From: Loktanella sp. 5RATIMAR09
GTDB lineage: Bacteria > Pseudomonadota > Alphaproteobacteria > Rhodobacterales > Rhodobacteraceae
Direction: 5' to 3'
DNA: 64,000 nt
Assembly (NCBI RefSeq): GCF_001419985.1
Contig: NZ_LJAL01000010.1
Location: 1-64,000, forward strand
Numbering within the stretch: position 1 is the stretch's first letter; the number at the start of each line of letters is the position of its first letter. A model generated the notes under the pieces. That model searched no databases. It was not told the DNA's origin and saw nothing but the letters and a program-made list of their open reading frames with translations. The position numbers and the translations under genes are program-made. Below are positions 19,020 through 32,802 of the stretch, piece by piece.

Positions 19020-19724
19020 TCAGTCAGTCTGAGGTCCACAAAGATACGTTTCCAGCAGGGCGATCAGTTCGGGCACCGTCCGGCTTGCACTTGATCCCGG
19101 CGAGAAAGCTTCAATTGCAGCAAGTGACTTCGGGCCCAGAACACCATCGACCTGTCCCGGGTTTTCACCTGCTATGACCAGTAAGCGCTGAAGCGCCGCG
19201 ACGTCATCGGTTTCTGCGACAGAGGCCGCACGGCACAGGACTTTCGCTGTTGTTTCACTTGTGCCGATCGGTTCCAGCGCAATTGCGGTGTTGACCGGTT
19301 CTGTGGCTGGCACGGCAGTAGCAGCGACCGGGACAGGCGCAACGGTCTCCACTTCTGCGCCCAGCAGGCATTGGCCAATTGATCTTGCTACGATCTCTGC
19401 ACCTTCAGGCGGGACCCCCACGCGGGACATTTCACAAGCTTGCGCAGACACGTCGCAGGTGATTGTCAACTCCCAGTCCTGAAAGGCGTCGGTCGGACGC
19501 AGTGTCCCTTCGGCTGATGCGAATATTGTGTAAGCATATCCGTTGACGACCCCGTCTTGCCAGAACGCCGGAAACTGGGCTGATGGGACATCGGACACAT
19601 GCGATTCGACATTTGTGGCACCGGGCAGTGGCCGCTCGAAAGTCCCCGAGACACATGGCGCGGCGGCCAACGACGATGCGGTCAAACCGAGCCAAAGCGC
19701 ATGTGGCAGAAGGCGGGCTATCAT
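19020..19724 (-). CDS. Secreted protein with C-terminal peptidoglycan-binding-like domain, last gene of the glycan operon
   Basis: The 234-residue protein has a signal peptide (MIARLLPHALWLGLTASSLAAA), an N-terminal domain of about 30-120 with paired Cys that I do not recognise, a Pro/Val/Ala-rich linker of about 120-160, and a C-terminal stretch (DVAALQRLLVIAGENPGQVD, GVLGPKSLAAIEAF) like a peptidoglycan_binding_1 domain. Its ATG overlaps the stop of the DUF3131 gene (ATGA), so it is translated with the operon. Inference: a periplasmic accessory protein that contacts the cell wall or the glycan. Confidence 0.7.
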   Translation of the reverse strand: MIARLLPHALWLGLTASSLAAAPCVSGTFERPLPGATNVESHVSDVPSAQFPAFWQDGVVNGYAYTIFASAEGTLRPTDAFQDWELTITCDVSAQACEMSRVGVPPEGAEIVARSIGQCLLGAEVETVAPVPVAATAVPATEPVNTAIALEPIGTSETTAKVLCRAASVAETDDVAALQRLLVIAGENPGQVDGVLGPKSLAAIEAFSPGSSASRTVPELIALLETYLCGPQTD

Positions 19725-21046
19725 TGCCCTGCCCTGATCAAGGGACCGTGTGCGCGAAACGCCAACGATGCCAAGACCACCGCGTTTGTGTTCACCGTGA
19801 CCGAACTGTTTGTCGTGCCATCAATCTCGTAAATGCCTTCGGGCCAGCCGCGCTCTGTGTCACCCAAAGGTGCAATTGCGGCCACCAGTTCACGTGTATA
19901 ATCCGTGCCGAAAAGTGCATCCCACGCGAAAGCGACCTTTGTTGTGATCGTGCGCTTGCTGTCTAATCTCTCACCTCTGAACGTCATCACGGCCCAAGGC
20001 GCCCCACCGCCCCAGACAGACGAGTAGATAAAGTACGGGGCCACATCGATGTGAGACTCGCTCACAGCCGTTAGGATGCCGGAATTGCGATAGCGGGCTT
20101 CTTGCGCACTGTAGATCGCAGTTGCAAATCGCGCAGACCGCGCGTCAAAGCCGAATTCCAACCCGTCAAAGAGATATGGCTCGCTCACGGTAAAAGCAGG
20201 AGTGACGTTCCGATGCAGCCGCGTGTCTACCGGAATCGGATGGCCTTCGACATCGCGCACCATCAAATGGCTTTCCGCATCATAGGCATTATAGACGTCG
20301 TAACCAAAGAGCATCATCGCCTTGGCTGCATACTGCTCGTAACCAACCCGACCCTCTTGGTCACGTCGCAAGTTCCCTTCGATCATATTGCCGCCAATGA
20401 GTTGACCGTTCTCAACCATTTCGGAAAGGTTCCACCGGTTGATAAGGCGCGCGGTTTGTTGGGCGAGTTCGGGATAGTTGGCTTCGACATGGCCAAGTGC
20501 CGCCACCATGCGGGCAATGTCCAAGGCTGACCAGCCAAGGCCGCGCTCGACCGGTTCATTGGCGTAATTCACCAGTTCTCCGGTGCGCACATTATAGGCC
20601 TTGTTCGGCAGCACCCCGTCAAACAGCCGGATGTCATTGAGAGTATCCAAAGCCAAGCCAATGCGCTCGACTGCTTCGCTTCGCGCAATGACACCCAGCC
20701 TTTCGGCCGAAATCGTTGCGACGAAATAGGATCCGGTTTCCCACATCGTGGTGGACGGGTAATTGTCTGTCGAGTTCACAAGGCCTGTTGTGGGGTCAGT
20801 ATTGTTCTGGAAATAGCGCCACGCGATCTGCGCGTATGCGATGTCGTCTGGCGAAGAGGTCCTCGTGATCGCAAGAGGCAGTGGTGCGACGTCGTCAAAC
20901 TGTGCCATTTGCCCACCTGCGTTCTGTGTGTTGTCAGCGCCGTCAGAACGGCGATCTATTGCGGTTACCAGTGCCAGACCGCACGCCAGAGCCAGCAGAA
21001 AGATGATATGGCTACGTGCTTTGATGATGTTGTCTTTAACGCTCAT
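19721..21046 (-). CDS. DUF3131 protein B, putative glycan-active enzyme
   Basis: From the ATG at 21046 (AAGGAATTGAATAAC upstream) the protein has 441 residues: an N-terminal membrane anchor or signal (HIIFLLALACGLALVTAI) and a DUF3131 domain from about 80 to 430. Blocks shared with the paralogue in this operon are YPSTTMWETGSYF, NKAYNVRTGELVNYANEP, QEGRVGYEQYAAKAM, LFDGLEFGFDARS and ERGWPEGIYEIDGTTN. The regular helical pattern with Trp, Asp/Glu and Tyr in conserved positions resembles alpha/alpha-barrel carbohydrate enzymes, but no activity is established that I can name. It lies directly behind the GT2 gene and overlaps the next gene. Confidence 0.85.
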   Translation of the reverse strand: MSVKDNIIKARSHIIFLLALACGLALVTAIDRRSDGADNTQNAGGQMAQFDDVAPLPLAITRTSSPDDIAYAQIAWRYFQNNTDPTTGLVNSTDNYPSTTMWETGSYFVATISAERLGVIARSEAVERIGLALDTLNDIRLFDGVLPNKAYNVRTGELVNYANEPVERGLGWSALDIARMVAALGHVEANYPELAQQTARLINRWNLSEMVENGQLIGGNMIEGNLRRDQEGRVGYEQYAAKAMMLFGYDVYNAYDAESHLMVRDVEGHPIPVDTRLHRNVTPAFTVSEPYLFDGLEFGFDARSARFATAIYSAQEARYRNSGILTAVSESHIDVAPYFIYSSVWGGGAPWAVMTFRGERLDSKRTITTKVAFAWDALFGTDYTRELVAAIAPLGDTERGWPEGIYEIDGTTNSSVTVNTNAVVLASLAFRAHGPLIRAGQ

Positions 21047-21047
21047 G

Positions 21048-22868
21048 TTATTCAATTCCTTCTTCCGCGCCGGGCAACCAAAGTGCCGCGCCGATAATGC
21101 CCAGCATCGCCAAGCAGTTGTTAAAACCCCATAGAATGTTTGATACGACGCCGGTGGCTGAATGCGGTGTCGCGTCAGCGGCAAGCGCCCCTAGCGCCCA
21201 GAGACCAGCAAGGACCGTCAAAACAACGACGGCGATTTGCGGCCTCACCAATACAAGGAAATTCCCCGACTGCCGCACTTTGGGTGTGACCTTGAAAGAG
21301 ATCTGGCTGCCTTTCAGCACCGAAGTGATCGCCCGCAAACCCAAGGGGAAGAATGACAGATAGCTGGCCTTTGCCGCATATCCCGGCACGCCCCACGTTC
21401 CCGCCATCATGGCCAGTTCCAGTGTCACAAGAAACGGGATCAGGTGCCAAAAGAACGCGTCCGAGTAAGCCGTCACCGGCGAAATACCCGTGAACAAATA
21501 CACAATCGGGGCGATCAGAAAGATCACGTTCCAGATCGGCGCCAGATAGGAATAGAACGTTGTGGCGTACATCATCCGCTGGGGAAACGTCAGGCCGCGC
21601 CGAAAGAGTGGATTGTCATGGATCAGGATATCAAGACTGCCACCCGCATATTTGTAACGCTGCGTGGTCCACGTCAGCAGGTCTTGCGGGGAAAGCATTT
21701 TGCTTTCCACAATTGGGTGCATCTTCGACTTCCAACCGCGCTCGCGGTCTGCATGCATCACGATCGAGGTGTAGATGTCTTCCGAGACATGAAAACGGTA
21801 AGGTGTCAGGATTTCGGTGGTCGCCGCCTCTGTGCGGATCGCGTCCATCAGGTCCGGGGCGATCTCGCGTTCTTTGCTTGAGACCGTAATAACTTCTTCT
21901 GTGGCATGGGCGCGGGTTTCAACCTTTGCGCCAAAGCTGCGCAACGCGGCTTCCATGACGGCTTCGCGACGGTGGATGGACCCTGCACCACAGCAGAAAG
22001 AGGCATTCGCCCAGTTCCGGCGGCGCTGAATGATATCGTAAAACATCTTGGGGTCGGACACAAAAGGATCAGCGCCGATCCGGATTGGCCCGACGACTTT
22101 CTGTATCGCGCGACCGGCGATGGCTGCTTTTTGACCAAAGCGCCGGTTCAGGGCAGCATCGAGGGTTTCACCCTCGGGCAGGTCATAGAACCACTGCGGT
22201 GTTTGAACCCATGCCATCTTGGGGTCATTGAAGTACCCCAAAGTATTTTCAAGAATTGTGGGAAAGGGCCGTGTGTCGGCGTCGCAGATGATCAGCAGGT
22301 CGCCCGAGGTCTGCTCCATCGCATGCCGCAGGTTACCAGCCTTGAAGCCCTCGTTTGTAGTGCGCGTAATATAGTTGACCCCTTCTGCTTCGGCGATGCG
22401 GCGCATCTCGGCACGGCGTCCGTCATCAAGCACATGAATACGAATGTCGATTGCGTGGGGATATGTGATTTTCTTGGCATCGCGCAGACCAAGGCGCACC
22501 AGCGCGGGATCCTCGTTATAGGTTGCGAACATGATATCCACAGCGAGGGGGCGGTCGCCCTCGGGGTGATCGGGTGCAATATCATTAAGGCACGACGGAG
22601 GGGCCAGGATCTCGATTGGTTCGTCTTTCCAGAGATTGAAGACGAAAAGGATCATCCCGATATATGCACAGGTTTCGGCGATGGCGAGCGGGACCGCGAA
22701 CCACATCGCCTCGGTGTTGAGTGAGGCCGTCCAGCGCCACTCAATGTACCATGCGCCCACGACCAGAGCGACAGTCGCGAGTGACTGCCACAGCAGTTCA
22801 CGCGGTGCCGAATATGGCAGTGGCGGCTCCGGTGTCCGGTCTTCGAACTTAAGGAAGTAGTCGTCCAT
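21048..22868 (-). CDS. Cellulose-synthase-like processive GT2 glycosyltransferase
   Basis: The 606-residue protein has two N-terminal membrane spans, a cytoplasmic GT-A domain and about four or five C-terminal spans. Catalytic signatures are VLDDGRR (D148/D149), ICDADTRP (D196-A-D198), WVQTPQWFYD as in BcsA, FCCGAGSIHRREA, SEDIYTS (362-368, the place of TED) and TTQRYKYAGG (401-410). The last motif stands where processive synthases have Q(Q/R)xRW, here with Lys-Tyr in place of Arg-Trp. No PilZ domain is fused. UDP-glucose is the likely donor because galU lies in the same region. The start abuts the acyltransferase stop (TAA-ATG). The polymer and linkage are unknown. Confidence 0.9.
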   Translation of the reverse strand: MDDYFLKFEDRTPEPPLPYSAPRELLWQSLATVALVVGAWYIEWRWTASLNTEAMWFAVPLAIAETCAYIGMILFVFNLWKDEPIEILAPPSCLNDIAPDHPEGDRPLAVDIMFATYNEDPALVRLGLRDAKKITYPHAIDIRIHVLDDGRRAEMRRIAEAEGVNYITRTTNEGFKAGNLRHAMEQTSGDLLIICDADTRPFPTILENTLGYFNDPKMAWVQTPQWFYDLPEGETLDAALNRRFGQKAAIAGRAIQKVVGPIRIGADPFVSDPKMFYDIIQRRRNWANASFCCGAGSIHRREAVMEAALRSFGAKVETRAHATEEVITVSSKEREIAPDLMDAIRTEAATTEILTPYRFHVSEDIYTSIVMHADRERGWKSKMHPIVESKMLSPQDLLTWTTQRYKYAGGSLDILIHDNPLFRRGLTFPQRMMYATTFYSYLAPIWNVIFLIAPIVYLFTGISPVTAYSDAFFWHLIPFLVTLELAMMAGTWGVPGYAAKASYLSFFPLGLRAITSVLKGSQISFKVTPKVRQSGNFLVLVRPQIAVVVLTVLAGLWALGALAADATPHSATGVVSNILWGFNNCLAMLGIIGAALWLPGAEEGIE

Positions 22869-24023
22869 TTAAATGGCCATCGCTGACTTGCGGGATTTGA
22901 GAAGTTCCCAAGGGGTTGGACCCAGACCAATCGTCCAAGCCAGAGGAAGAAATTTCGACAGAGCAATCGTGACAGCAAATGACAACGGCAGCGCGACGGC
23001 AAACCGCCCGGTGACGATCATCCACGGGTCCATGAGTGGTGAAATCCCGGTTGTGAAAATCGCAATGTCGTACAGGTCGATCACAAACGGATGCACAAGA
23101 TAGACACCAAAGGTATAGCGCGCCAGTTCGCTCCACTTGGCAGACCACTGCAAATACTGACCGCCAATGAAGATGAAGAAAACAAAGATCGGCATCAGGA
23201 AGTGGCCGTAAAAATCCCAGCCACTGCGCACACCCCATGATCCGGTATCAAACGCGGTATAGAAGAAGGGCAAGGTTGCGACATACGCCAGTGCTGCAAA
23301 GTAAAAACTGACCCTGCGGATCAGGCGCGCTTCGCCGCGCGGGATGCCGTCATTCCAAAGCCCGTAGATGGCAAAGGCCGCCATACCGTACCCGACGTAG
23401 CCGAAAACCTTGATCGCCCGCAGAATGTAATCGCGCAGCATGGGATCAATCTCCAAACCCCATATGAACGCTTGCGCATTGTTCATCACACCGATGGTGA
23501 TCACCACTGTCAGACCAAGAACAGGATAGCGTGTCGCGGCCCGCATGACGGGGTAGAATAGGAAAAGCGCAAAGAGCGTTGGCAGAAAGTGCATGTGATA
23601 TTGGGACTTGCCCAGGATCAGATACCCCAGCCAGGACTTGGCCTGCCCCAGCTGCTCCCAGATGTAGGGCGCGTAATTGAAGGCATCTGCCTTTAGCAGC
23701 CGGAAGAACGCGTAAAATACAGCCCAGAACAAGAACGGGACAAGCAGTCTTTGGGCCTGCGTAGAAATGACATTGCCATAGTGCGGCATCTTTTTGTCCA
23801 CACGCATCGCCATAAGAAACAACGAAAACATGAAGAACATCTCAGAGCCCGAAAACTCGCCGAGGGATCGCATGAAGACAGGTATGACCCTTTCTCCTTC
23901 GGTCGCGTCCGGAAAGGCCTGCCCGCCAAAATCAGTTGAACTGTGAATAAGGACGACGCCGAAAGCTGCAAAAACGCGGTTTGCATCGAACCAGACCAAA
24001 CGTGGTTTAGAGGCGGTACTCAT
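22869..24023 (-). CDS. Acyltransferase family 3 (OpgC-like) membrane protein
   Basis: The 384-residue protein has about ten spans and the AT3 signature R-x10-H in WFDANRVFAAFGVVLIH, plus SGSEMFFMFSLFL and FGVYLVHPFVIDLYDIA near the C-terminus. AT3 proteins move acyl groups (acetyl, succinyl and others) across the inner membrane onto extracytoplasmic glycans, as in OpgC, OafA or cellulose/EPS acetylation. Its ATG overlaps the upstream DUF3131 stop (ATGA) and its own stop abuts the GT2 start, so it should decorate the product of this operon. Acyl donor and position are unknown. Confidence 0.88.
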   Translation of the reverse strand: MSTASKPRLVWFDANRVFAAFGVVLIHSSTDFGGQAFPDATEGERVIPVFMRSLGEFSGSEMFFMFSLFLMAMRVDKKMPHYGNVISTQAQRLLVPFLFWAVFYAFFRLLKADAFNYAPYIWEQLGQAKSWLGYLILGKSQYHMHFLPTLFALFLFYPVMRAATRYPVLGLTVVITIGVMNNAQAFIWGLEIDPMLRDYILRAIKVFGYVGYGMAAFAIYGLWNDGIPRGEARLIRRVSFYFAALAYVATLPFFYTAFDTGSWGVRSGWDFYGHFLMPIFVFFIFIGGQYLQWSAKWSELARYTFGVYLVHPFVIDLYDIAIFTTGISPLMDPWMIVTGRFAVALPLSFAVTIALSKFLPLAWTIGLGPTPWELLKSRKSAMAI

Positions 24024-25747
24024 TGGCTTACCCCCGGTGCAGGACAGCTTTGCGGCAAGACCTGCCGGACCTGAAGTGGTTCCAGCTTGTGTTCTTGGGT
24101 ACTGCACCCAGTGGCAGCGACTTCGCCTCCTGCCACTACGGGACGGCAATACAGGAATTCCTCAACCGGAATGACAGGTCTGACCGTATTGCGGCTTGCG
24201 CAGGCACAGCAGGGAATTTCTTCAACAGCAGGGTTGGGATGGCACTTGTTGGCGCGAATATCGGTTCCGACAAACGCTGTGTCCCAGACTTGTGTGTTCT
24301 GGTTCACATGCTGCAAGATTGGCCCCTGCACCTTGTAGAGCAGCGCCGCCAGAATAACCCCGTTGTTATTTGCCGTTTGTAGCGGAATGAACCCATTCCC
24401 GTTCTCATAGAGGCCCTCGTAGAACCCGCGATCCGGCACTGACAGGTCTGCAACAGTTTCAAATAACAGGTCGGTATACGGCGTGTCCCAAAGTGCCCAC
24501 AAACCAACAGCCGCTTTCGCGGACACGGCGGCCCGGTCGGGTTGATAGGCGCCTGTTGGGTCTAGCGTGTTCCACGCATAACCATCGGCAAAGATACTGT
24601 CATAGACAAAGTAAGGGCTGCCTTCGACCTGATGCTCTGATCGTGCGGTGATGATGCCCGTCCGTTCAAACCGACGCTGCTGGACAAGATAGATCCGGTT
24701 GGCAAATTCCGCCCGCCAGCCGTGGCTTGCGACCATATTGTCGTTTGTGTCGTCGGTCGGCAGATCCCAGCCAAGCTCCAGCCCGTCCAGAATATAACCT
24801 TCGGTCAGAACATAGTTCTGGCTTTTGAAAACACGCGGATCGCGTCCGTCATATGGCACACGAACGTCGTAGATATAGGCGTATTCCAATGGTTCTGGCG
24901 ACATCGCACGCGCAACGTCAAACCCCCAAAGAGCAAACCCTTTCGCGGCATATTCCTCATAGCCAAGACGGCCTTCTTGCACGTAGCGTGTTTCACCGTT
25001 GCCTTGTGTGAACGAGCCGAACATACGGCCATCTTCATTGATCAGATTGCAGAAATTCCAGCGCATCGGAACGTTGTCAACGCTATTGGCAAGATGCGGA
25101 TGACGTTCCTTGAGAATGCGTAGCCAGACCAGAAGGCGGCCGATGTCATTTGCGGACATGCCAATCTCACCCGGCTGGTTTGCATAGTTCACCATTTCGC
25201 CGGTTGCGGCGTTATACACTTTGTTAGGCGCTTCTCCGCGATACAGAGGCAGGTTGCGCAGCGTATTGAGGATACGGGTCGCGCGGTCATCAAGCTCTCT
25301 TTTGTCGATCACACACAACTCGTAGGCCGCAACCATGGCGCTGATGTAGGATGCAGTGTCCCAAAGGGTGGTCGAAGGGAAGTTGCCGACCGCATTCACC
25401 AATCCGGTTTCTGGCTGATAAAACGTCTCGAAATAGGACCAGGCGGTCTTGGCCATTTCGAACTCGCGCGCTGTCAACGGCCCATTGCGGCCGAAATGCG
25501 CGGCATTCTGGTTGCGCGATCCAGCCAAACATTCCTGCGCGACCGGCTCAGATGCGACAATGGTCAACGCCGTGCCCGATGTGATCGTGACACTGTCGTA
25601 GTCTTGCCCATCGACGGCGGACCCGGTGATAGTGATCGCCAGAGTTGAATCTGCGCTATCCTGCGCCATGGCCGGAGCAATCAAACCAAGGCCAAAGCCT
25701 GAAAAGGCAACTACGCGCAAAAAGCTGGTAAATTTATGTTTTTTCAC
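24020..25747 (-). CDS. DUF3131 protein A, putative secreted glycan-active enzyme
   Basis: The 575-residue protein has a signal peptide (cleavage near PAMAQDS), a short beta-rich N-terminal segment (TLAITITGSAVDGQDYDSVT), a DUF3131 domain of about 90-480 and a Cys-rich tail from about 500 (CHPNPAVEEIPCCACASRN). Domain blocks FPSTTLWDTASYI, NKVYNAATGEMVNYANQP, QEGRLGYEEYAAKGF, ILDGLELGWD and DRGFYEGLYENGNG match the paralogue B. It starts with GTG inside the stop of the RsbW-like gene (GTGA), preceded by AGGAG, so regulatory and glycan genes form one transcript. Inference: it trims, cuts or releases the glycan made by the GT2, a role like that of BcsZ in cellulose synthesis. Confidence 0.85.
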   Translation of the reverse strand: MKKHKFTSFLRVVAFSGFGLGLIAPAMAQDSADSTLAITITGSAVDGQDYDSVTITSGTALTIVASEPVAQECLAGSRNQNAAHFGRNGPLTAREFEMAKTAWSYFETFYQPETGLVNAVGNFPSTTLWDTASYISAMVAAYELCVIDKRELDDRATRILNTLRNLPLYRGEAPNKVYNAATGEMVNYANQPGEIGMSANDIGRLLVWLRILKERHPHLANSVDNVPMRWNFCNLINEDGRMFGSFTQGNGETRYVQEGRLGYEEYAAKGFALWGFDVARAMSPEPLEYAYIYDVRVPYDGRDPRVFKSQNYVLTEGYILDGLELGWDLPTDDTNDNMVASHGWRAEFANRIYLVQQRRFERTGIITARSEHQVEGSPYFVYDSIFADGYAWNTLDPTGAYQPDRAAVSAKAAVGLWALWDTPYTDLLFETVADLSVPDRGFYEGLYENGNGFIPLQTANNNGVILAALLYKVQGPILQHVNQNTQVWDTAFVGTDIRANKCHPNPAVEEIPCCACASRNTVRPVIPVEEFLYCRPVVAGGEVAATGCSTQEHKLEPLQVRQVLPQSCPAPGVSQ

Positions 25748-26211
25748 GAATTTTCTCCTGACTGCGTTGCAATCGGTTTCTTTGGGCGCGATTGGTTCCT
25801 GCCCGCCTTGAGGAAGGCCAAAGAGAGACGGTTGCGACCGTCGACGGGGCCGTATCTGACAACATCAGCGCATTTCAGAATTAGGCCCAGTCCACGTCCG
25901 CTTTCGGCCATCGGGTCGACTGCCGGCAAGAGTTTGACATGATCGCGAGGATCGAATGCTTCTGCGCCAGCCGGGTCGAATATCTCGACAACCACAGCTT
26001 GGGGGATTTCGGTAACGATCAGATCTACAAAGGCATCAGCGGTTTTCGGGTTGGCATGAACGACGATGTTGGTCAGCGCTTCTGTGACAGATATTTCACA
26101 ACGCACTGCATCGTCGCCCGTGAGGACCATGCTGACAGCCGCCTTCAGAGACATGACCATAAGGTCCACGTCTTCCAAGGTTTTTTGCATCTGATGGCGG
26201 CTCTTGATCAC
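25744..26211 (-). CDS. RsbW/SpoIIAB-like serine-protein kinase (partner-switch kinase)
   Basis: The 155-residue protein has an HATPase_c_2 fold with the N box SVTEALTNIVVHANP (E44, N48), a G1-type Asp in EIFDPAGAEAF and the glycine lid SGRGLGLILKCADVV. Proteins of this class bind and phosphorylate an STAS antagonist and alternately bind a sigma factor or another target. The GTG start lies in the STAS gene's TGA (GTGA), and the stop overlaps the DUF3131-A start. An alternative ATG is at 26190. No sigma factor gene adjoins, so its downstream target is unknown; it could be elsewhere or could be an enzyme of this operon. Confidence 0.87.
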   Translation of the reverse strand: MIKSRHQMQKTLEDVDLMVMSLKAAVSMVLTGDDAVRCEISVTEALTNIVVHANPKTADAFVDLIVTEIPQAVVVEIFDPAGAEAFDPRDHVKLLPAVDPMAESGRGLGLILKCADVVRYGPVDGRNRLSLAFLKAGRNQSRPKKPIATQSGENS

Positions 26212-26552
26212 TGGTATTCAGCCATTGACTGAACGGCTGCGTCGACATCCTTGTAGACCACAAAAACCCGATCCATCCGGCAGATCCGGAACATCTGCTG
26301 CACGTCACTGTTGAGGCCGGAAACAACAAGATCGCCCCGATGTCCGATTTTCTTCAGAACACCAACCAGCGCCCCGAGACCCGAGGAATCGAGAAACGTT
26401 ACATTCTTGAAATCAATGACGACACGATTTGCACCGCCATTGATGATGTCCGTCACCTCGTCTTTGAACATCTTTGCATTCGCGGCCGTCAGCCGTTCGG
26501 CACCGGGTCGGACGAGTGTGATGTTCTCATCAAGCGTTGTTGTATGTATCAC
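26208..26552 (-). CDS. RsbV/SpoIIAA-like STAS-domain anti-sigma-factor antagonist
   Basis: The 114-residue single STAS domain contains VIDFKNVTFLDSSGLGALVG. Ser56, directly after Asp55, is where SpoIIAA-type proteins are phosphorylated by the kinase and dephosphorylated by the phosphatase. The order phosphatase-STAS-kinase, with overlaps, matches classical partner-switch loci. It starts with GTG behind GAGGAAG and overlaps the 3' end of the RsbU-like gene by 23 bp. Confidence 0.9.
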   Translation of the reverse strand: MIHTTTLDENITLVRPGAERLTAANAKMFKDEVTDIINGGANRVVIDFKNVTFLDSSGLGALVGVLKKIGHRGDLVVSGLNSDVQQMFRICRMDRVFVVYKDVDAAVQSMAEYQ

Positions 26553-27759
26553 TGGGATTCTTCCTCTCGAGGGCGAGGACCGTTAGATCGTCTTCTAACG
26601 GCACGCCGTTGCGCCACAGGTTCAATGCCTGCACAATGGATAGCGGGATTTCGTCAACTCCCAAACGGGGGAACAAGCGCGCGATGTCGCCGATCCGTGG
26701 GGTGCCGAAAGGTTGATTTGATGTGTTTTCGGCCTCTGCCGCAGCGTCCGAACAAATGACCAGAGCCGCGCCGATTTCAAATTGATGCGTATTATTTCCA
26801 TAGGTTGCCGAGGACAACATGCCGACAGGAAAGCCGCCATCGCCAACCAAGCTCACACTTCCGGCCGGATCGACATAGAACGCAGACGGGTACCCTGCCT
26901 GGCAGAAATCCAGACGTCCCGACACACGATCGACAATGCCGCAGAACATGGTGAAATAGTCGTCGCCGTCGAATGCGCTGAAGCGGGCGTTCAATGTGGC
27001 GACCATCCCGGCGGGGTCGGGCCGACCATCCGCATCGAAAGCATGGGTGCGGAAATAATCCGGCGTAATCAGATGGCCGATTGCAACGGACAACAGCGAT
27101 GCGTGCACACCGTGCCCTGACACATCAACCGCGTAGAAACCCAGCTTTTTATCGTTTAATTCAAAATATCCAAACATGTCGCCCGAGACGATTGCCGAAG
27201 GCACGAAAGCGGACGCGACACGAAAGCCCATCACTTCGTCTTGCAGATTTGGCAAGAGCTGACACTGTGCCACGGCCGCTGCGCGCAGATCATCCTGAAT
27301 ACGCTGGTTGGTTTCCTTGATGATGCGCGTCCGGTCAGCAAGCTCTGTTGCGTGATTGATCAAACGCACCGCCGTCTGCAAACGCGCCTTGAGCAATGCG
27401 GGGCTGCTCTCTTTGGTGATGAAATCGTCAACGCCAGCCAGCAAAGCCGCGTCACGTATGTCAACCGCATCTGCCCCTGTGACCATAATGACATGGACAT
27501 ATTGATCCAGATTGCGCGCGCGTATCGCGCGGGTCAGGTCGATGCCATCAAGATGCGGCATCTCAAGATCACTGATCACGATCTCTGCTCTTGTCCGCGC
27601 CACGAGATCAAGTGCAATATCGCCGTCCGCAGCTTCAATTGCCTCAAATCCAAGACCATTGATCAGGCTGCACAAAAAGAGTCGCTGCAGATCAGAGTCT
27701 TCTGCAACGATTACCTTCATGCGCGGTGCTTGGGTTTGTCGTAAGGTGCGGTCGAACAT
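26530..27759 (-). CDS. RsbU-like PP2C/SpoIIE phosphatase with N-terminal receiver domain
   Basis: The 409-residue protein has a CheY-like receiver at about 14-135 (VIVAEDSD, phosphoacceptor D64 in IVISDLEMP, Lys in DDFITKESS), a short coiled linker of about 140-175 (TRIIKETNQRIQDDLRAAAV) and a SpoIIE/PP2C domain of about 175-400 with SGDMFGYF, FYAVDVSGHGVHAS and MFCGIVDRV. It should dephosphorylate the STAS protein when its receiver is activated. The ATG at 27759 follows AAGGAG, which is folded into a hairpin (27762-27787). The cognate signal may come from the hybrid kinase on the other side of galU. Confidence 0.9.
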   Translation of the reverse strand: MFDRTLRQTQAPRMKVIVAEDSDLQRLFLCSLINGLGFEAIEAADGDIALDLVARTRAEIVISDLEMPHLDGIDLTRAIRARNLDQYVHVIMVTGADAVDIRDAALLAGVDDFITKESSPALLKARLQTAVRLINHATELADRTRIIKETNQRIQDDLRAAAVAQCQLLPNLQDEVMGFRVASAFVPSAIVSGDMFGYFELNDKKLGFYAVDVSGHGVHASLLSVAIGHLITPDYFRTHAFDADGRPDPAGMVATLNARFSAFDGDDYFTMFCGIVDRVSGRLDFCQAGYPSAFYVDPAGSVSLVGDGGFPVGMLSSATYGNNTHQFEIGAALVICSDAAAEAENTSNQPFGTPRIGDIARLFPRLGVDEIPLSIVQALNLWRNGVPLEDDLTVLALERKNPSDTYNNA

Positions 27760-27761
27760 TT

Positions 27762-27787
27762 GATATCTCCTTGGCGAAGGAGGTATC
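27762..27787 (-). promoter_or_regulatory. RNA hairpin that masks the ribosome-binding site of the RsbU-like gene
   Basis: On the minus-strand RNA GATACCTCCTT pairs with AAGGAGATATC around a CGCC loop: ten of eleven positions pair, with one A-C mismatch. The AAGGAG at 27772-27767 is the Shine-Dalgarno of the ATG at 27759, so folding would block ribosome access. No T-run follows, so it is not a simple terminator. This suggests translational control, by an RNA-binding protein, a small RNA or temperature, which is inference. Confidence 0.6.
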
Positions 27788-27869
27788 TTGATTAACAAAG
27801 TGTTTCATCAACGCGGGCGGCTAAGTACGAAACGCTTTTGGGACGCAAACCCATCCGAACGGGTAGGTT

Positions 27870-28484
27870 CTAGAAAAGACCCGCCTCACGCGCAATCAAT
27901 GCAGCCTGTGTGCGATTGGCGGCATCCAGTTTCCGGTACAGCGTCTTCATATGCAGTTTGACGGTGGGCTCTTGGATGTCGAGATCGCGGGCGATCTCTT
28001 TGTTTGACTTGCCTTGGGTCAGCCCTTCAAGGACCTGCAACTCGCGTGCCGTCAACTTGGCTGCCAAAGGGTTGGTTTCAACCTCATCCGCCGCCGTCAT
28101 AAAGTCGAGCGGGGCATATTGTTCACCCATCGCCATGAACTTTACCGCATTAACCAGTGATCTGGCCGGTAGCGACTTGGGCACAAACCCCGAGGCCCCG
28201 GCTTCTAAAGCTGCTTCTGCGACCTGCTTGGTCGCTTCTCCTGAAATCAGTGCAACTTTTTGTCCCCGCCCCATTGCGATAGCCATCTTGAGACCTTCAA
28301 GCCCGTTCATTCCGGGCATATTGTAGTCCAGCAAGATGAGATCATAGGGCGGATCGTTCTGAATGCGTTCGGCAGCTTGGGCAAAAGTGCCGACAGCCTC
28401 TGTCTCCATGCTGCCTTCGTTTTCCAGAAACAAGACCAGCGTGTCTCTGAGCAGATCATGATCATCGGCGATTAGGACTCTCAT
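27870..28484 (-). CDS. LuxR/NarL-type response regulator
   Basis: The 204-residue protein has a receiver (LIADDHDLLRDTL, phosphoacceptor D53 in LILLDYNMPGMNG, VPKSLPARSLV with the conserved Lys) and a C-terminal LuxR helix-turn-helix (LTARELQVLEGLTQGKSNKE, then IARDLDIQEPTVKLHMKTLY). The ATG at 28484 is preferred because the receiver begins directly after it. It lies 110 bp upstream of the RsbU-like gene on the same strand and 244 bp from divergent galU. It is a plausible output of the hybrid kinase at 30301-32802 and a candidate activator of the glycan operon or galU. Confidence 0.9.
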   Translation of the reverse strand: MRVLIADDHDLLRDTLVLFLENEGSMETEAVGTFAQAAERIQNDPPYDLILLDYNMPGMNGLEGLKMAIAMGRGQKVALISGEATKQVAEAALEAGASGFVPKSLPARSLVNAVKFMAMGEQYAPLDFMTAADEVETNPLAAKLTARELQVLEGLTQGKSNKEIARDLDIQEPTVKLHMKTLYRKLDAANRTQAALIAREAGLF

Positions 28485-28728
28485 TGCGCTTCCCCGTGAA
28501 TTTTGCATCCAGTAGCTGTCGACTATGACCAATCAATGGCACAACTACTGGAAGATTAAGACTTCTTAACCCTTTTGGATAGTATAGCTACCGCATCGAG
28601 TGTGCCATCCATCTCGTTTGAGATGTGCATGCATCATTTGCGCTAAACCGCTGTCCCTCTGCTCGGTTGCGATGGAGCGGTTGTTGTCCGATCAGGCAGT
28701 GATCCGAAACCGCATGAAAGCACGCGTA

Positions 28729-29616
28729 ATGACACATATCCGTAAAGCCGTTTTTCCTGTTGCCGGAATGGGAACACGTTTCCTGCCCGCGACCAAATCC
28801 ATCCCCAAAGAAATGCTGACATTGGTCGACCGTCCTTTGATCCAATATGCGGTGGATGAAGCACGCGAAGCTGGCATCGAGGAATTCATCTTTGTGTCTG
28901 CGGCAGGCAAAGGCGCTTTGGAAGACTACTTTGATACGGCGGCCGCACTGGAAACACGATTGCAGGCAGCAGGCAAGGTAGATGCCCTTGCAGCGCTTGA
29001 ACCGACGCGGATGCCGGAGGGCGCATTGACGATTCTACGTCAGGCCCAGCCCCTCGGGCTTGGCCATGCCGTCCGTCAGGCCAAGCGACTGATCGGAAAC
29101 GAGCCTTTTGCAGTGATCTTGCCGGACGATGTGATCAAGGGCGAGCGTGGTGCTTTGGCGCAAATGGTTGATGCCCATCGCGACATCGGCGGCCATATGG
29201 TTGCAACCATGAATGTCCCTGTTGCTGAAACGAACATGTATGGCGTGCTCGACGTCAAGGAACAGGTCGGCGCGCTGGCCTATGCACGTGGCTTGGTTGA
29301 AAAACCCCGCCCCGATCTGGCGCCGTCAACAAAGGCAGTCATTGGTCGCTATATTCTGGACAGTGCGATCATGGACCGCCTTGACGCTTTGTGCCCGGGC
29401 GCGGGTGGTGAGTTGCAACTGACAGATGCAATCAATGCCGACGTCAAATCTGTGGGTGTCACGGGATATATGTTTGAAGGTCAGCGGTTCGATTGCGGAT
29501 CGGTCCAAGGCTATGTTCAGGCCACCGCAGCATTTGCCTTGAGCCGGGCAGACCTGCGCGACGCATATGCAGCCTTTGTCGACCAGCGGCCCCGGCCACT
29601 GCGATTGGTTGCCTGA
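28729..29616 (+). CDS. galU: UTP-glucose-1-phosphate uridylyltransferase
   Basis: The 295-residue enzyme makes UDP-glucose, the activated donor for glucans and many surface sugars. It shows AVFPVAGMGTRFLPATKSIP, KEMLTLVDRPLIQYAVDEA, QPLGLGHAVRQAKRL, FAVILPDDVI, GLVEKP and GGELQLTDAI, covering the nucleotide and sugar sites of bacterial GalU. The ATG at 28729 fits the usual N-terminus (MTHIRKAVFPVAG); an ATG at 28714 is also possible, and neither has a strong ribosome site. The position beside the GT2 operon suggests dedicated precursor supply. Confidence 0.95.
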   Translation: MTHIRKAVFPVAGMGTRFLPATKSIPKEMLTLVDRPLIQYAVDEAREAGIEEFIFVSAAGKGALEDYFDTAAALETRLQAAGKVDALAALEPTRMPEGALTILRQAQPLGLGHAVRQAKRLIGNEPFAVILPDDVIKGERGALAQMVDAHRDIGGHMVATMNVPVAETNMYGVLDVKEQVGALAYARGLVEKPRPDLAPSTKAVIGRYILDSAIMDRLDALCPGAGGELQLTDAINADVKSVGVTGYMFEGQRFDCGSVQGYVQATAAFALSRADLRDAYAAFVDQRPRPLRLVA

Positions 29617-29740
29617 TTTGGCTCAAACATGCACGCCCACCCGGTCGCCCTATCCGAATGGATGGGCCGATATCCCCATGCCCGCATGCTTTCGGACTTT
29701 TTCGGTGTCAAAAGAGTACGGTAAATCCAAAGGATACCCC

Positions 29741-30256
29741 ATGTTAAGTTACGTCAAAAAAGTTCTGCTTGTTATGTCATTGGCCGTTGCCTCGGTTTCA
29801 CCCGCAATGGCACAGCAGATCGAAGCGCCGTCCGGTGATGTTGTGCTGACTGTGTCCGGCGCGATCTCGATGACCAATGACGGTGATCAACTGCTTCTTG
29901 ATGTTGAGATGTTGAAGGGGTTGCCCGCCACGACCTTTGAGACCTCAACCATCTGGACCGATGGCGTGCATCAATTCAAAGGCGTCTCACTCGCAGACTT
30001 TGCCGCCAGCGTCGGTGCAGAGGCCGGGCTGTTTCTGGCAACGGCGATCAACGATTATACGGTTGAAATCCCTTTCAGCGATGCCGTCGCAGGCGGACCT
30101 ATCATTGCCTACCTGATGGATGGAGAAGCAATGTCTGTACGCGACAAGGGGCCGCTCTGGGTGATCTACCCTTATGACAGCAACAGCCTCTATCGCTCGG
30201 AAGTGGTCTATTCGCGCAGCATTTGGCAACTCGACAGGGTGGAAATCGTTCAGTAA
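29741..30256 (+). CDS. Periplasmic PruR-like protein (oxidoreductase molybdopterin-binding fold without cysteine)
   Basis: The 171-residue protein has a signal peptide (MLSYVKKVLLVMSLAVASVS, cleavage near AMAQQ) and a single domain of the sulfite-oxidase/molybdopterin-binding type: DVEMLKGLPATTFETSTIWT, FKGVSLADF, AINDYTVEIPFSD, MDGEAMSVRDKGPLWVIYPY. The mature chain has no Cys, so it lacks the molybdenum-coordinating residue of sulfite oxidases. From the literature I recall that PruR of Agrobacterium, of this fold, binds pterins and controls the membrane regulator DcpA and thereby polysaccharide adhesins. The hybrid kinase follows after 44 bp, so a sensor-partner role is inferred. The start has AAAGGA at good distance. 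Confidence 0.8.
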   Translation: MLSYVKKVLLVMSLAVASVSPAMAQQIEAPSGDVVLTVSGAISMTNDGDQLLLDVEMLKGLPATTFETSTIWTDGVHQFKGVSLADFAASVGAEAGLFLATAINDYTVEIPFSDAVAGGPIIAYLMDGEAMSVRDKGPLWVIYPYDSNSLYRSEVVYSRSIWQLDRVEIVQ

Positions 30257-30300
30257 CCCTGTAGGTCAATTGAAAGGCTTCAATCGAAGGGACCTCTGAG

Positions 30301-32802
30301 GTGTTCGCCACCATATTGCCGCGTAATCGGAAGGGTCGCAGAATTGCCGTTCTCGCAGGCCTTGTGGCGATGTCTGCGATCGCCTTGCTCACATATAATG
30401 TGTCAAAAGAAATCCGCCTGCTTGGCTCTGCCCGATCAGACAATGTGCAGTGGTCGCTGGTTCAAACACAGGTTGAATTTCTTGAGTTCGTACAAGAGGT
30501 CGAAAATGATCCTGTCGACTTGGGGCAGATGCGGCAAGAGTTCGATATCTTCTTCAGCCGCATAGCCACGGTCAAAGAGGCAACCGTTTTTGAAGGCCTG
30601 CGCGCTGATCCAGAAGTCCGGCAGCATCTGGCCGCGTTGAGCCGGTTTATCGACCAAGCAGTCGAAATAATCGACGCGCCCGACAGTGAACTTTTGCAGC
30701 AAACTCCGCGTTTGGCGGTGATGGCGCAAGAGATTGCACCAAGAATACGGGCGTTGGGAAACTCGGGGCTGGATCTATACGCGCGTCAGGCTGACGCACA
30801 AAGGGAAGCTGTCGCGCGGACCATGACACAGTTGGCTGTCGCAATTGCTGCGTTGATTGGAGTGCTTTTACTAGCAATTCTCTACCTCAACCGCTTGAAC
30901 GGCCGCATCTATCGTCGCGAACGCGAAAACAAACAAACATCAACACGTATGAGCACCGTCATGAGCACGTCACTTGACGGGCTCATCGTATGCGATGCCG
31001 ACGGGCTGATCTTGCAGTTCAGCCCGGCGGCCGAAGGAATTTTCGGCTTCAAAGAAGAAGATGTCCTCGGCCAGGAGATAGGATCGGTCATTGTGCCTGA
31101 CCACATGCGCGATGCGCATGACGCCGGCATGGAGCGTATGCGCCAGAACGGCGAAAAACGCGTGGTCGGGAAAGGGCGCGTCAAGCTGGAAGCCAAGCAC
31201 CGTGAGGGCCACATCTTTCCTGTCGAGCTTGCGATCCAGTCGGCAACGACCGACGAAGGCGAAATTTTTGTCGCGTTCTTGCGCGACATCTCAAATCGCG
31301 TTGCCGCAGAAGCCGAGCTTGTCGCAGCGCGTGACAAGGCTTTGGCCGGAGAGAAACTCAAGACCGACTTTCTGTCCACAATGAGCCATGAAATCCGAAC
31401 ACCTCTCAATGGTCTCTTGGGAAATATGAGCCTGTTGCGCGACACGAAAATGAACCCCTTACAGGAGCGTTACGTCGGCTACATGGAAACCTCAGGCCGC
31501 CTGTTGATGAGTCACATTTCCGATGTCTTGGACATTACCCGCTACGATGCAGGAAAGCTCAGCACCCGGTCACAACCGGTGGATATTTCCGCTTTGCTGC
31601 AGGATATCGTTGATAACCAAAAGGGCACCGCCACAAAGAATGAAACTTCGTTGACTTGGCGTTGGCGCGGCGAACGGATGAACACGGTTTTGTCCGACCA
31701 TGACAGGCTTCAGCATGTCTTGATGAACCTGATCGGCAATGCTGTAAAATTCACCCGGCGTGGAGAGGTGTCGGTCACCGTCGAAAACGTTGGCGAAACG
31801 GATAATGCTGAACTGCTGATCCAGATTGCAGACACGGGGCCTGGTATACCTGCGGATCTTGCCGAGCGCATTTTTGATGATTTTGTCACCGGCAACGTGG
31901 CGTACGACCGTGAAGCTGGCGGGACCGGATTGGGCCTGAGCATCGCAAAACGTTTCGTCGATGCACTCGGTGGTGAAATTGGCGTGCAAAGCGTGGTTGG
32001 TCAAGGCAGTACGTTCTGGGTTAAGCTACCAGTCACGCCTGCCGGGCCAGCGGATGGCAAACCTGAGCAACCTGCGATCTTGCTGCCGACAAGGCCCCTG
32101 AATGTGTTGTTGGTCGAAGATAACGAAATCAACCGGATCGTCGCGCGTGAAATGCTTCAGGCCGAGGGACATTCGGTTGTTGAGGCCAATGATGGACCAC
32201 AGGGTGTCGCGGCTGCCACCGAAACCCATTTTGACCTTATTCTGATGGATATCAGCATGCCCATCATGGATGGTCGCGCAGCGACTCGGGCCATCCGTAG
32301 CAGCAATGGTGCTAGCAAAGAAACGGTTATTATCGCCCTCACTGCCAACGCCATGCCCGAGGAGCAAAAGGAGTTTCTCTCAGATGGCATGAACGGCATC
32401 CTGACCAAACCGCTCTCACGCCCCGCGTTGCGCGATCTGCTTGGCCACATCGGCCGCCCATCAAGTCGCGAGACACAAGGCATGATCGATATCGGCCATA
32501 GCGATCAAACACGTGATGCACTGGGGGAAGAGGCTTTTGTGAAACTCAGGGCCCGCTTTGTGAGCGAAGTCGATGCATTTCAAAACTGGCTAGAGTCTGG
32601 CGAGGCCCATGATTTTCTTGAAATATCCGCGCGTGCGCACAAAGTTGCAGGTAGCGCGGCGGTGTTTGGAGCAGGTCCCTTGGGAAAGACGCTTAAACAA
32701 ATCGAGGCCGCGGCCAAAGTAGGAAACGTCGACGATATACGCGATAGCTCAGCACGTTTCGCCACCAGTTGGATACGCACTAAGACCGAACTCTCGCAGT
32801 AA
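30301..32802 (+). CDS. Hybrid sensor histidine kinase (periplasmic sensor, PAS, HisKA, HATPase, receiver, Hpt)
   Basis: The 833-residue protein has one span at about 13-34, a mostly helical periplasmic region of about 35-175, a second span at about 178-199, a PAS domain at about 215-335, HisKA with the phosphohistidine H363 in STMSHEIRTPLNG, HATPase (NLIGNAVKFTRRG, DTGPGIP, GGTGLGLSIAKRF), a receiver with D650 in LILMDISMPIMDG, and a C-terminal Hpt with H780 in ARAHKVAGSAAVFG. It is thus a full phosphorelay in one chain. GTG is the likely start, just behind the PruR-like gene. Candidate receivers of the phosphoryl group are the LuxR-type regulator and the RsbU-like protein across galU. Confidence 0.92.
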   Translation: MFATILPRNRKGRRIAVLAGLVAMSAIALLTYNVSKEIRLLGSARSDNVQWSLVQTQVEFLEFVQEVENDPVDLGQMRQEFDIFFSRIATVKEATVFEGLRADPEVRQHLAALSRFIDQAVEIIDAPDSELLQQTPRLAVMAQEIAPRIRALGNSGLDLYARQADAQREAVARTMTQLAVAIAALIGVLLLAILYLNRLNGRIYRRERENKQTSTRMSTVMSTSLDGLIVCDADGLILQFSPAAEGIFGFKEEDVLGQEIGSVIVPDHMRDAHDAGMERMRQNGEKRVVGKGRVKLEAKHREGHIFPVELAIQSATTDEGEIFVAFLRDISNRVAAEAELVAARDKALAGEKLKTDFLSTMSHEIRTPLNGLLGNMSLLRDTKMNPLQERYVGYMETSGRLLMSHISDVLDITRYDAGKLSTRSQPVDISALLQDIVDNQKGTATKNETSLTWRWRGERMNTVLSDHDRLQHVLMNLIGNAVKFTRRGEVSVTVENVGETDNAELLIQIADTGPGIPADLAERIFDDFVTGNVAYDREAGGTGLGLSIAKRFVDALGGEIGVQSVVGQGSTFWVKLPVTPAGPADGKPEQPAILLPTRPLNVLLVEDNEINRIVAREMLQAEGHSVVEANDGPQGVAAATETHFDLILMDISMPIMDGRAATRAIRSSNGASKETVIIALTANAMPEEQKEFLSDGMNGILTKPLSRPALRDLLGHIGRPSSRETQGMIDIGHSDQTRDALGEEAFVKLRARFVSEVDAFQNWLESGEAHDFLEISARAHKVAGSAAVFGAGPLGKTLKQIEAAAKVGNVDDIRDSSARFATSWIRTKTELSQ

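Follow-up and report, generated by a model that had tools for sequence, protein, structure and literature searches.

A marine bacterial locus that combines a putative pterin sensor, a partner switch and glycan genes

Pterin signalling is best known, in the account given in PMC13259868, through the c-di-GMP enzyme DcpA, and pairs of PruR and a kinase have already been described there as 'PruR-DTB' (PruR with a DcpA-TorS-BaeS-type sensor kinase), a PAS-HisKA-HATPase-Rec kinase of this kind being shown for Ruegeria pomeroyi. In the HptB-HsbR-HsbA system of Pseudomonas aeruginosa, as described in PMC6482189, biofilm is controlled from hybrid kinases and an Hpt through a REC-PP2C protein, which governs the phosphorylation of a STAS protein. 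In the RsbK-RsbY-RsbV-RsbW system of Bacillus cereus, following PMC9912610, the phosphatase that acts on RsbV is a PP2C protein whose receiver is phosphorylated by a sensor kinase. Separate precedents exist for the pairing of PruR with a kinase, for phosphatases fed by an Hpt and for STAS proteins that control polysaccharide; we found no paper on their combination.

The locus described here – a ~14-kb block from a marine bacterium – brings together a putative pterin sensor, a protein-phosphorylation switch and putative machinery for a sugar polymer of the surface or periplasm, and ties pterin signalling to a possible new output. It lies in the window, that is, the whole 64,000-nucleotide stretch of DNA analysed, where domain searches found twelve genes at the positions claimed by an earlier sequence-only reading, with the named domains present and all ORFs open (Table 1). 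Gene content, checked residues, switch-glycan co-occurrence, exchangeable kinases, a sharp-ended block and the predicted DUF3131 fold – all of them read from sequence – lead us to favour, with moderate confidence, the explanation that this is a transferable cassette for making and modifying a glucan outside the cytoplasm, of probable beta-1,2 or a related linkage, with control at two levels. A bolder proposal, which we hold only tentatively, is that RsbV directly gates a beta-1,2-type glucan synthase without a sigma factor, a fixed switch-synthase core being combined with plug-in sensors, here a periplasmic pterin sensor.

Table 1. Features of the locus in window coordinates, with the evidence for each
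Feature	Coordinates	Strand	Evidence
Whole cassette, 12 genes	18921..32804	.	one blastn match without break to two relatives
Exported protein, C-terminal peptidoglycan-binding domain	19020..19724	-	PG_binding_1 E 4.8e-4, below cut-off
DUF3131 copy b, N-terminal hydrophobic stretch	19721..21046	-	PF11329 E 9.8e-124; ORF open from 21184, start 21046 inferred
GT2, glucan-synthase-like membrane protein, BcsA-like	21048..22868	-	Glycos_transf_2 and CelA/BcsA matches
Acyl_transf_3 membrane acyltransferase	22869..24023	-	PF01757 E 1.5e-20; start inferred
DUF3131 copy a, exported, putative glucan-processing (alpha/alpha)6 enzyme	24020..25747	-	PF11329 E 1.6e-120
RsbW-like serine kinase/anti-sigma-type protein	25744..26211	-	HATPase_c_2 E 7.4e-13
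RsbV-like STAS protein	26208..26552	-	STAS E 1.8e-19
RsbU-like PP2C phosphatase, N-terminal receiver	26530..27759	-	Response_reg E 5.9e-21, SpoIIE E 8.6e-31; ORF open from 27798, start 27759 inferred
LuxR/NarL-type response regulator	27870..28484	-	Response_reg and GerE; ORF open from 28532, start 28484 inferred
Divergent intergenic region, 244 bp, separating two transcription units	28485..28728	.	gene starts
GalU	28729..29616	+	TIGR01099 294 bits, under 326.8 cut-off
PruR-like periplasmic protein, putative pterin binder	29741..30256	+	7rkb/7kos/7kp2 matches; ORF open from 29567, start 29741 inferred
Hybrid sensor kinase PAS-HisKA-HATPase-REC-Hpt	30301..32802	+	Pfam domains; WX7E at residues 51-59

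By their coordinates, RsbU and RsbV overlap by 23 nt, and 4-nt overlaps join RsbV to RsbW, RsbW to DUF3131, DUF3131 to the acyltransferase and the second DUF3131 gene to the PG-binding gene. The stop/start overlap that had been proposed for this run of genes is found at most joints but not at two, where, with the starts as inferred, the acyltransferase gene directly adjoins GT2, which is separated from the second DUF3131 gene by 1 nt. Of the 37 homologous loci with both genes, 32 show an RsbV/RsbW overlap of precisely 4 nt, which argues that the arrangement is not due to chance. A promoter scan of the intergenic region gave three matches against a shuffle mean of 1.8, close to chance level; matches in a repeat scan were also at chance level, and a scan for RNA families returned a tRNA alone.

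Among 390 genomes of the order, RsbV of the window's type occurs in 14 – at 107 bits or more, a line set after the gap to the next match (84 bits) was seen, in a listing that covers E 1e-20 or better – and these are exactly the 14 genomes that carry a DUF3131 pair at the window's ~4.6-kb spacing. The expectation that switch and close glycan block are conserved together was borne out, neither occurring without the other in the genomes searched; for the opposing case, 13 relatives were inspected, and in none of them did the close glycan block lack the switch. Sequence comparison thus indicates that the switch and glycan genes belong together.

A table of 43 homologous loci (L003-L039, L043, L046, L047 and L049-L051) has RsbV in 42, and RsbU and RsbW in 37; 37 database loci were retrieved with DUF3131a as the query, and its presence in them is by construction. 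The table leaves out L001 and L002 (pieces of the window), L053-L078 (other layouts), L040-42, L044, L045 and L048 (on contigs equal in length to those of L037, L006, L004, L029, L016 and L007) and L052 (G369), which has identities like those of L017, with RsbUVW and a soluble kinase present. L036 is the locus of Yoonia vestfoldensis DSM 16212. Near-copies or close relatives among the loci are L015/L018/L038, L028/L039 and L023/L026, and L033 and L035, which have no full GT2, were omitted from the tree. In G142, which has distant versions of the glycan genes, an RbaV/RbaW-like pair separates acyltransferase from DUF3131, with a REC-PP2C gene next to GT2; the acyltransferase-STAS-DUF3131 order recurs in G008 and G271, and in G200 a membrane PP2C and a STAS gene adjoin GT2-DUF3131. 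In eight genomes with more distant DUF3131/GT2, a partner switch was absent from the stretches examined.

The cassette matches two relatives without a break (94.0% and 89.8% identity), and the shared block stops just beyond both outer genes, with flanks not common to these relatives – the behaviour of a single module, as had been suggested. Since the block is 94% identical in one relative, where samples of the backbone give 79-85% and the block sits at another genomic place, the cassette has probably moved as one unit by horizontal transfer. In G318 the cassette identity of 89.8% is not above that of the backbone; the exact empty site was not found, and the G318 site is occupied by another island.

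The residues of a partner switch (PP2C Asp, STAS Ser and GHKL N-box/G2) are present. RsbU consists of REC and SpoIIE PP2C domains only, with RsbW encoded separately; phosphatase and kinase domains being unfused, the switch is not of the HsbR/CrsR type. D77 and five PP2C Asp residues are kept in 38 of 38 RsbU sequences, Ser56 – the probable phosphoacceptor of RsbV – in all 43 RsbV sequences, and N48 and E44 in all 38 of RsbW, two of which have Glu in place of Asp79. RsbW is the sole HATPase_c_2 match above cut-off in the genome, and RsbV its only short-frame STAS protein, other STAS matches lying in frames of 552-584 aa; a second partner switch was sought in these matches and not seen.

Five loci have a lone RsbV directly before DUF3131, together with the PruR-kinase and LuxR regulator and without local RsbU or RsbW. 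Because RsbV alone stays where the locus lacks RsbU and RsbW, the output is probably RsbV and not a sigma factor released by RsbW. That these lone proteins had lost the phospho-Ser was ruled out, the Ser being conserved; their genomes have an RbaV/RbaW-like pair elsewhere, and a lone RsbV may therefore still have a kinase. RbaVW-like pairs were found elsewhere in six genomes with locus-type RsbV, and the RsbV matches listed outside the 14 cassette genomes (E 1e-20 or better) share 39-47% identity with the RsbV of the window.

On the input side, the best solved relatives of the PruR-like protein are pterin-binding (7rkb, E 1.8e-31; 7kos, 2e-30; 7kp2, 3.8e-22). A Trp replaces the Moco-ligating Cys, and the pocket Tyr and Asn are present: N162, Y164 and W220 (ORF numbering), aligned with 7rkb/7kos, are kept in 20 of 20 sequences, with the roles of Asn, Tyr and Trp as given in the PMC13259868 account. 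The protein is accordingly a probable pterin sensor. In the kinase, WX7E (W51...E59) is periplasmic, between two hydrophobic segments, with similar placement in close orthologues; the L034 and L035 kinases have no WX7E at the usual place. The Hpt domain scores 25.6 bits against a 24.6-bit Pfam cut-off; among ten other proteins scanned it is above the cut-off in five, below it in two and without a hit in three, and Pfam detects none in L032, L034 and the L043 remnant. A second PruR-kinase in the source genome also has an Hpt, beside a different output, and the presence of Hpt alone therefore does not fix the partner.

The idea that PruR and its kinase are a constant part of the set did not survive the comparison: PruR is in 19 of the 43 loci and absent from 24, 19 of which have another hybrid kinase, and glycan blocks lacking the PruR kinase are frequent. 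The PruR/kinase input is, judging by these loci, exchangeable. Of the 37 RsbU loci, 34 have a hybrid kinase or an Hpt-like protein close to RsbU; the inputs, assigned by hand, are a PruR-type kinase (11), PruR-type plus soluble kinase (1), a soluble hybrid kinase (14), a membrane hybrid kinase between RsbW and DUF3131 (5), and a single anchored Hpt-like protein at that position (3), with no input seen in two loci and a contig cut in one. In L043 and L047 PruR adjoins RsbU and the stretch has no DTB kinase; a fusion of PruR input to RsbU was ruled out there, the RsbU receiver being ordinary. The LuxR-type regulator (D69 kept in 18 of 18) is missing from 26 of the 43 loci; since the PruR kinase and this regulator occur without RsbU in five, the regulator is at least as likely as RsbU to be the phosphorelay target.

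As to the product, the model of DUF3131 copy a (pLDDT 79.9) has the (alpha/alpha)6 fold of beta-1,2-glucan enzymes (SGL clan/GH189), with 8wy1 at Z 32.2 (rmsd 2.9, 357 residues). Bacterial beta-1,2-glucan enzymes reach Z 25-32, above all others, the fungal one Z 22.6, level with methylmannose hydrolase, and other (alpha/alpha)6 enzymes Z 18-22; three of the leading hits bear the name 'putative glucoamylases', and identity to the structures listed is at most 15%. With hhalign, DUF3131 matches the cyclization domain at E 6.4e-8, over just 103 N-terminal columns unless forced; in the forced global profile alignment only, E371 stands opposite the TiCGS nucleophile E1442 and Y382 opposite Y1456, the acid/base E1356 being without a clear counterpart. 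The predicted fold agrees with the earlier proposal of a glucan and points to a likely beta-1,2-type product.

The GT2 does not classify as a BcsA cellulose synthase – its best NCBIfam match, CelA, scores 222 bits, far under the 699-bit cut-off, and Pfam finds no PilZ domain in it – and, being BcsA-like, it could instead make a beta-1,4 or beta-1,3 chain. The locus GalU is an extra copy, probably dedicated to UDP-glucose supply: two further GalU-like genes in the genome have 60% and 50% identity. Four cassette-free genomes of the genus have copies 73-74% identical to it. In the last protein, the PG-binding domain scores 20.7 bits against a 23-bit cut-off, the model (m762316a3f570) matches SltB3 at Z 8.0 over 54 residues, and a fold search with the N-terminal domain gave no convincing match. 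MdoG/OpgG had no match anywhere in the genome.

In the cassette explanation, GalU would provide UDP-glucose, the PilZ-less GT2 would polymerise and export the chain, and the two DUF3131 proteins would act on it in the periplasm by cleavage, transglycosylation or cyclisation, with the acyltransferase decorating the glucan and the last protein anchoring glucan or machinery to peptidoglycan. PruR, either free or carrying a reduced pterin, would dock on the kinase's WX7E periplasmic domain, and phosphate would pass from His to Asp to the Hpt His and on to two receivers: that of the LuxR regulator, for control of transcription, and that of RsbU, for control of its phosphatase activity. The phosphorylation level of RsbV Ser56 would reflect the balance of RsbU and RsbW, RsbV being the probable output of the switch.

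Alternatively, two circuits could run in parallel, PruR, kinase and Hpt acting only on the LuxR regulator to turn the operon on, another kinase acting on RsbU, and the switch gating the synthase after transcription. PruR and the LuxR regulator do occur together in 16 loci (PruR alone in three, LuxR alone in one), the five loci without RsbU fit the same picture, in L008 a soluble kinase upstream of RsbU is accompanied by a separate PruR-kinase-LuxR set downstream, and the genome's third PruR system also adjoins a kinase and a LuxR-type regulator. However, no soluble type-B kinase was found elsewhere in the window genome (the best match, at 36%, covers residues 47-444 of 588, short of the Hpt part), leaving no other dedicated RsbU kinase visible, and in L009 the PruR kinase and RsbU occur with the LuxR regulator absent; we regard parallel circuits as rather unlikely. 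A classical anti-sigma switch, in which RsbW sequesters the sigma factor responsible for transcription of the cassette and RsbV does no more than relieve RsbW, fits the conserved RsbV and RsbW residues, yet appears quite improbable given that no sigma domain is among the domain matches of the twelve proteins, that RsbV is retained without local RsbW in five loci, and that in R. capsulatus, as far as PMC3999984 describes it, RbaW yielded no sigma partner, with RbaV suited to the role of output.

The glycan itself might not be beta-1,2-linked, with GT2 making a cellulose- or curdlan-like chain and DUF3131 being a glucanase of other specificity. The closeness of GT2 to BcsA/CelA, the low DUF3131 identity and the putative glucoamylases near the top of the fold search would suit this reading, which we regard as possible but doubtful, since the bacterial beta-1,2-glucan enzymes score above the rest and the cyclization-domain profile matches. 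That functionally unrelated neighbours have simply clustered is scarcely credible: locus composition differs among lineages, but the switch-glycan co-occurrence, the 4-nt overlaps and the sharp-ended shared block all speak against it.

If RsbV does gate the synthase, this would be, as far as our literature search shows, the first case of a partner switch fed by a pterin signal, and the DUF3131 proteins would be free-standing glucan transglycosylases – a testable function for a name rarely met in the literature searched. Because the switch and its probable target operon travel together and share an apparent transcription unit, the locus makes the target of a sigma-less STAS output (SypA, RbaV) directly testable. 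The loci also form a natural series, with switch and glycan operon constant and the sensor varying, useful for partner-switch rewiring.

Among described systems, the locus resembles PruR-DTB (PMC13259868) in that a secreted PruR-like protein adjoins a kinase with a WX7E periplasmic domain, but, unlike the pairs as described there, the window kinase ends in an Hpt domain and has a LuxR regulator, a REC-PP2C switch and a glycan operon adjacent. With HptB-HsbR-HsbA, in the PMC6482189 account, it shares genes for a hybrid kinase and Hpt, a receiver-PP2C and a STAS protein, whereas HsbR is a kinase-phosphatase fusion and the window has a separate RsbW, an Hpt within the kinase, and switch and glycan genes in one apparent operon. 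The receiver-PP2C and RsbV architecture is that of Bacillus cereus RsbK-RsbY-RsbV-RsbW, where, however, the output described is sigma B, with its gene in the cluster (PMC9912610); the window cluster has no sigma gene. RbaV-RbaW-RbaY of Rhodobacter capsulatus, from the same order, likewise comprises RsbV, RsbW and PP2C homologues, with RbaV fitting as output and no sigma factor found, but rbaVW is reported to be a two-gene operon, whose description in PMC3999984 mentions no glycan neighbours. In Vibrio fischeri SypA/SypE (PMC8256260), too, a STAS protein that acts as output lies within a polysaccharide locus; SypE differs as a dual kinase/phosphatase, and PruR, DUF3131 and such an Hpt kinase do not feature in that description. 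Finally, the DUF3131 model shares its (alpha/alpha)6 fold with 8wy1, its best match, but unlike that type of enzyme, DUF3131 is not part of a large synthase protein: it is a separate exported protein, present in two copies beside a GT2.

All twelve genes that the sequence-only reading placed in this locus, from periplasmic sensor through partner switch to glycan synthesis, are present and intact. They fall into two divergently oriented units separated by 244 bp. The plus-strand unit is galU-pruR-kinase and the minus-strand unit luxR-rsbU-rsbV-rsbW-DUF3131a-acyltransferase-GT2-DUF3131b-PG-binding gene (domains checked with Pfam for all 12 proteins, with NCBIfam for 10). Among proteins of known structure, the PruR-like protein matches pterin binders, with the pocket residues retained, and the kinase carries the periplasmic WX7E motif of PruR-partner kinases together with PAS, HisKA, HATPase, REC and Hpt domains (the Hpt match weak, yet above threshold); a simple hydropathy window makes hydrophobic segments visible in its orthologues. 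Counted over homologous loci plus the window, RsbV retains Ser56 (43/43), RsbU its receiver Asp and five PP2C Asp (38/38), RsbW Asn48, Glu44 and Gly107 (38/38) and Asp79 in 36/38, with Glu in the other two; the LuxR regulator keeps its Asp (18/18) and PruR its Asn, Tyr and Trp (20/20).

Coordinates of the cassette, its flanks and the compared stretches
Feature	Location	Content
Cassette	window 18921-32804	the twelve genes
tRNA-Thr	window 33091-33166	
293-aa frame	window 33374-34255	between tRNA-Thr and a GapR-like gene; no Pfam match
695-aa frame	window 34838-36922	APH domain, C-terminal
Second PruR system	L134 3824-7717 (contig C7 of the window genome)	receiver-HD_5 protein, PruR-like protein, Hpt-bearing kinase with WX7E motif
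Third PruR-like gene	L135 4980-7737 (contig C2 of the window genome)	followed by a simpler HisKA-HATPase kinase and a LuxR-type response regulator
G318 counterpart site	L131 10417-20000	integrase, resolvase, two cytosine methylases, McrBC
Short Hpt-like protein	L043 8560-9012	membrane-anchored
RbaV/RbaW-like pair	L066 8260-9074	unlike the window type; between acyltransferase and DUF3131a
RsbW-DUF3131a frame	L036 9536-11725	Yoonia vestfoldensis; one open frame, 732 aa

A DUF3131a scan of genome contigs yielded 37 loci, the nearest from Yoonia vestfoldensis; record titles name one as Jiella and one only as "Alphaproteobacteria", with the remainder falling in Rhodobacteraceae or Rhodobacterales, to which we take the named genera to belong. 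A second sample comprised 390 genomes from the order to which these relatives assign the window, drawn independently of switch presence, and DUF3131 occurs in 82 of them. At least two close-type copies are present in 26, and the matches in the other 56 are weaker or cut, many lying in roughly 750- to 1160-residue frames or in short stretches of synthase-like frames about 2800 residues long. The DUF3131 pair stands at the window's spacing in 14 of the 26 genomes, with rsbU-rsbV-rsbW upstream in every one. An RsbV search of the same 390 genomes (limit E 1e-20) gave 14 matches of at least 107 bits before falling to 84, and these 14 genomes are the same 14 (raw genome counts, kinship ignored). Co-occurrence holds for the switch and the close glycan block in these 390 genomes; PruR is present in fewer than half of the loci tabulated.

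Gene presence in 43 loci (L003-L039, L043, L046, L047, L049-L051)
Gene	Loci
RsbV	42/43
RsbU	37/43
RsbW	37/43
Acyltransferase	43/43
GT2	42/43
DUF3131b	43/43
PG-binding protein	41/43
PruR	19/43
LuxR regulator	17/43
PruR and LuxR regulator jointly	16/43
GalU	11/43, of which 8 at at least 75% identity

The sensory input is the exchangeable part. A PruR-type kinase alone lies near 11 of the 37 RsbU genes, and near one more, in L008, it is joined by a soluble kinase; soluble hybrid kinases (544-619 residues) lie near 14 (downstream of the operon in L011 and L032), and in five loci a membrane hybrid kinase sits in the slot separating RsbW from DUF3131a. Three loci from a single genus (L043, L046, L047) have as sole input a short membrane-anchored Hpt-like protein in that slot, which shares 38-47% identity with the Hpt portion at the end of the L022 membrane kinase and is apparently a hybrid-kinase remnant; in L043 and L047 PruR immediately precedes RsbU. 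None of these inputs was found near RsbU in L010 and L027, and L020 is cut by a contig end. Pfam Hpt scored above cut-off in the window kinase and in L029, L022, L007, L023 and L008, below it in L031 and L021, and without a match in L032, L034 and the L043 remnant; WX7E is absent from its usual place in the kinases of L034 and L035. A quick GT2 tree that leaves ten forks open sets the window-clade PruR-type kinase among soluble-kinase loci and the Paracoccus PruR loci in the other half, and requires input type to change at least seven times.

RsbV is probably the output of the switch, mainly because it is retained where the locus lacks RsbU and RsbW: in three Paracoccus loci and L034/L035, both are missing and RsbV directly precedes DUF3131a, alongside PruR, kinase and LuxR regulator. 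All five genomes hold a second RsbV-RsbW-like pair elsewhere, so the lone RsbV could borrow its kinase from there; the layout of that pair resembles the R. capsulatus rbaVW operon of PMC3999984. Celeribacter has both the cassette pair and another, and in the window genome only the cassette pair was seen. In L036 the single frame looks as though the RsbW stop were lost; it could represent the fusion of an exported enzyme to a cytoplasmic kinase, or else the two frames may match by coincidence.

The remaining 12 of the 26 genomes have a more distant GT2 and different layouts; in eight, no partner switch was found in the fetched stretches, and in four, other partner-switch genes are present. By inspection, G142 carries an STAS-RsbW pair of another, rbaVW-like type flanked by acyltransferase and DUF3131a, and its GT2 adjoins a receiver-PP2C gene; its congeners G008 and G271 share the acyltransferase-STAS-DUF3131a order, with an RsbU match adjoining GT2. 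In G200, GT2-DUF3131b is adjoined by an STAS gene and a PP2C with a hydrophobic N-terminal part. Partner switches of different kinds seem to have joined the glycan system more than once. In genus g8, L069 and L072 have the gene order of L066, where alone translations were read. Inspected translations also place RbaV/RbaW-like pairs (L088-L090, L092-L094) beside genes that we take to be GAF-domain-like and/or HspQ-like.

Within the window's genus, the cassette RsbV occurs in 6 of 22 genomes drawn, which argues that the cassette is gained or lost as one unit. It aligns unbroken to G358 (94.0%) and G318 (89.8%), both alignments ending just beyond the two outer genes. Over two 20-kb stretches, backbone identity is 79-85% for G358 (apart from one 280-bp piece, 67%) and 88-92% for G318, so the cassette stands far above the backbone in the former but no higher in the latter. 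The G318 cassette lies elsewhere, and about 9.9 kb of other DNA occupies the G318 counterpart of the window's cassette site, by tRNA-Thr. This site resembles a hot spot for integration: the window has a glycan cassette there, and G318 has integrase, resolvase, two cytosine methylases and McrBC; none of the 12 cassette proteins is an integrase. Nearby, the 695-aa APH frame may be a fusion, since many relatives match it as two adjacent frames.

The DUF3131a model (pLDDT 79.9, pTM 0.82) has 8wy1 as its best structural match (Z 32.2, rmsd 2.9 over 357 residues) and as its next ones, at Z 25-29, three putative glucoamylases, whole synthases and bacterial beta-1,2-glucanases; a fungal beta-1,2-glucanase (Z 22.6) scores about as a methylmannose hydrolase does (Z 22.4), and other (alpha/alpha)6 enzymes reach about 18-21. 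The DUF3131 profile meets six synthase-like frames at E 6.4e-8 over 103 N-terminal columns. With the GH189 catalytic positions E1356 and E1442, taken from PMC10834661, located by counting through the synthase alignment, DUF3131a E371 stands opposite E1442 and Y382 opposite Y1456 in a forced global alignment, which is weak evidence; E371 is invariant (36/36). MdoG/OpgG had no match in the window genome. The genome has three GalU genes, the cassette's included; within the 22 genus genomes, copies of at least 86% identity occur only in four cassette carriers, four non-carriers have copies at 73-74%, and two carriers (G127, G369) lack a close-kind GalU.

Modules, residues, linkage, shared block and predicted fold can be read from sequence; we infer the ligand, signalling direction, phosphotransfer partners, RsbV target and polymer. 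With three PruR-like genes in the genome, the window system has two counterparts, and cross-talk may occur. Phosphorylation of the RsbU receiver might either raise or lower phosphatase activity; receiver phosphorylation activates B. cereus RsbY (PMC9912610) and P. aeruginosa HsbR (PMC6482189). In the literature listings searched, which include few subscription journals or preprints, no paper combined these parts or treated DUF3131 function. The component relations are known from earlier reports: PruR-kinase pairs (PMC13259868), biofilm control through an Hpt-fed receiver-PP2C-STAS route (PMC6482189), an STAS output inside a polysaccharide locus, SypA (PMC8256260), and RbaVW(Y) in the same bacterial order (PMC3999984).
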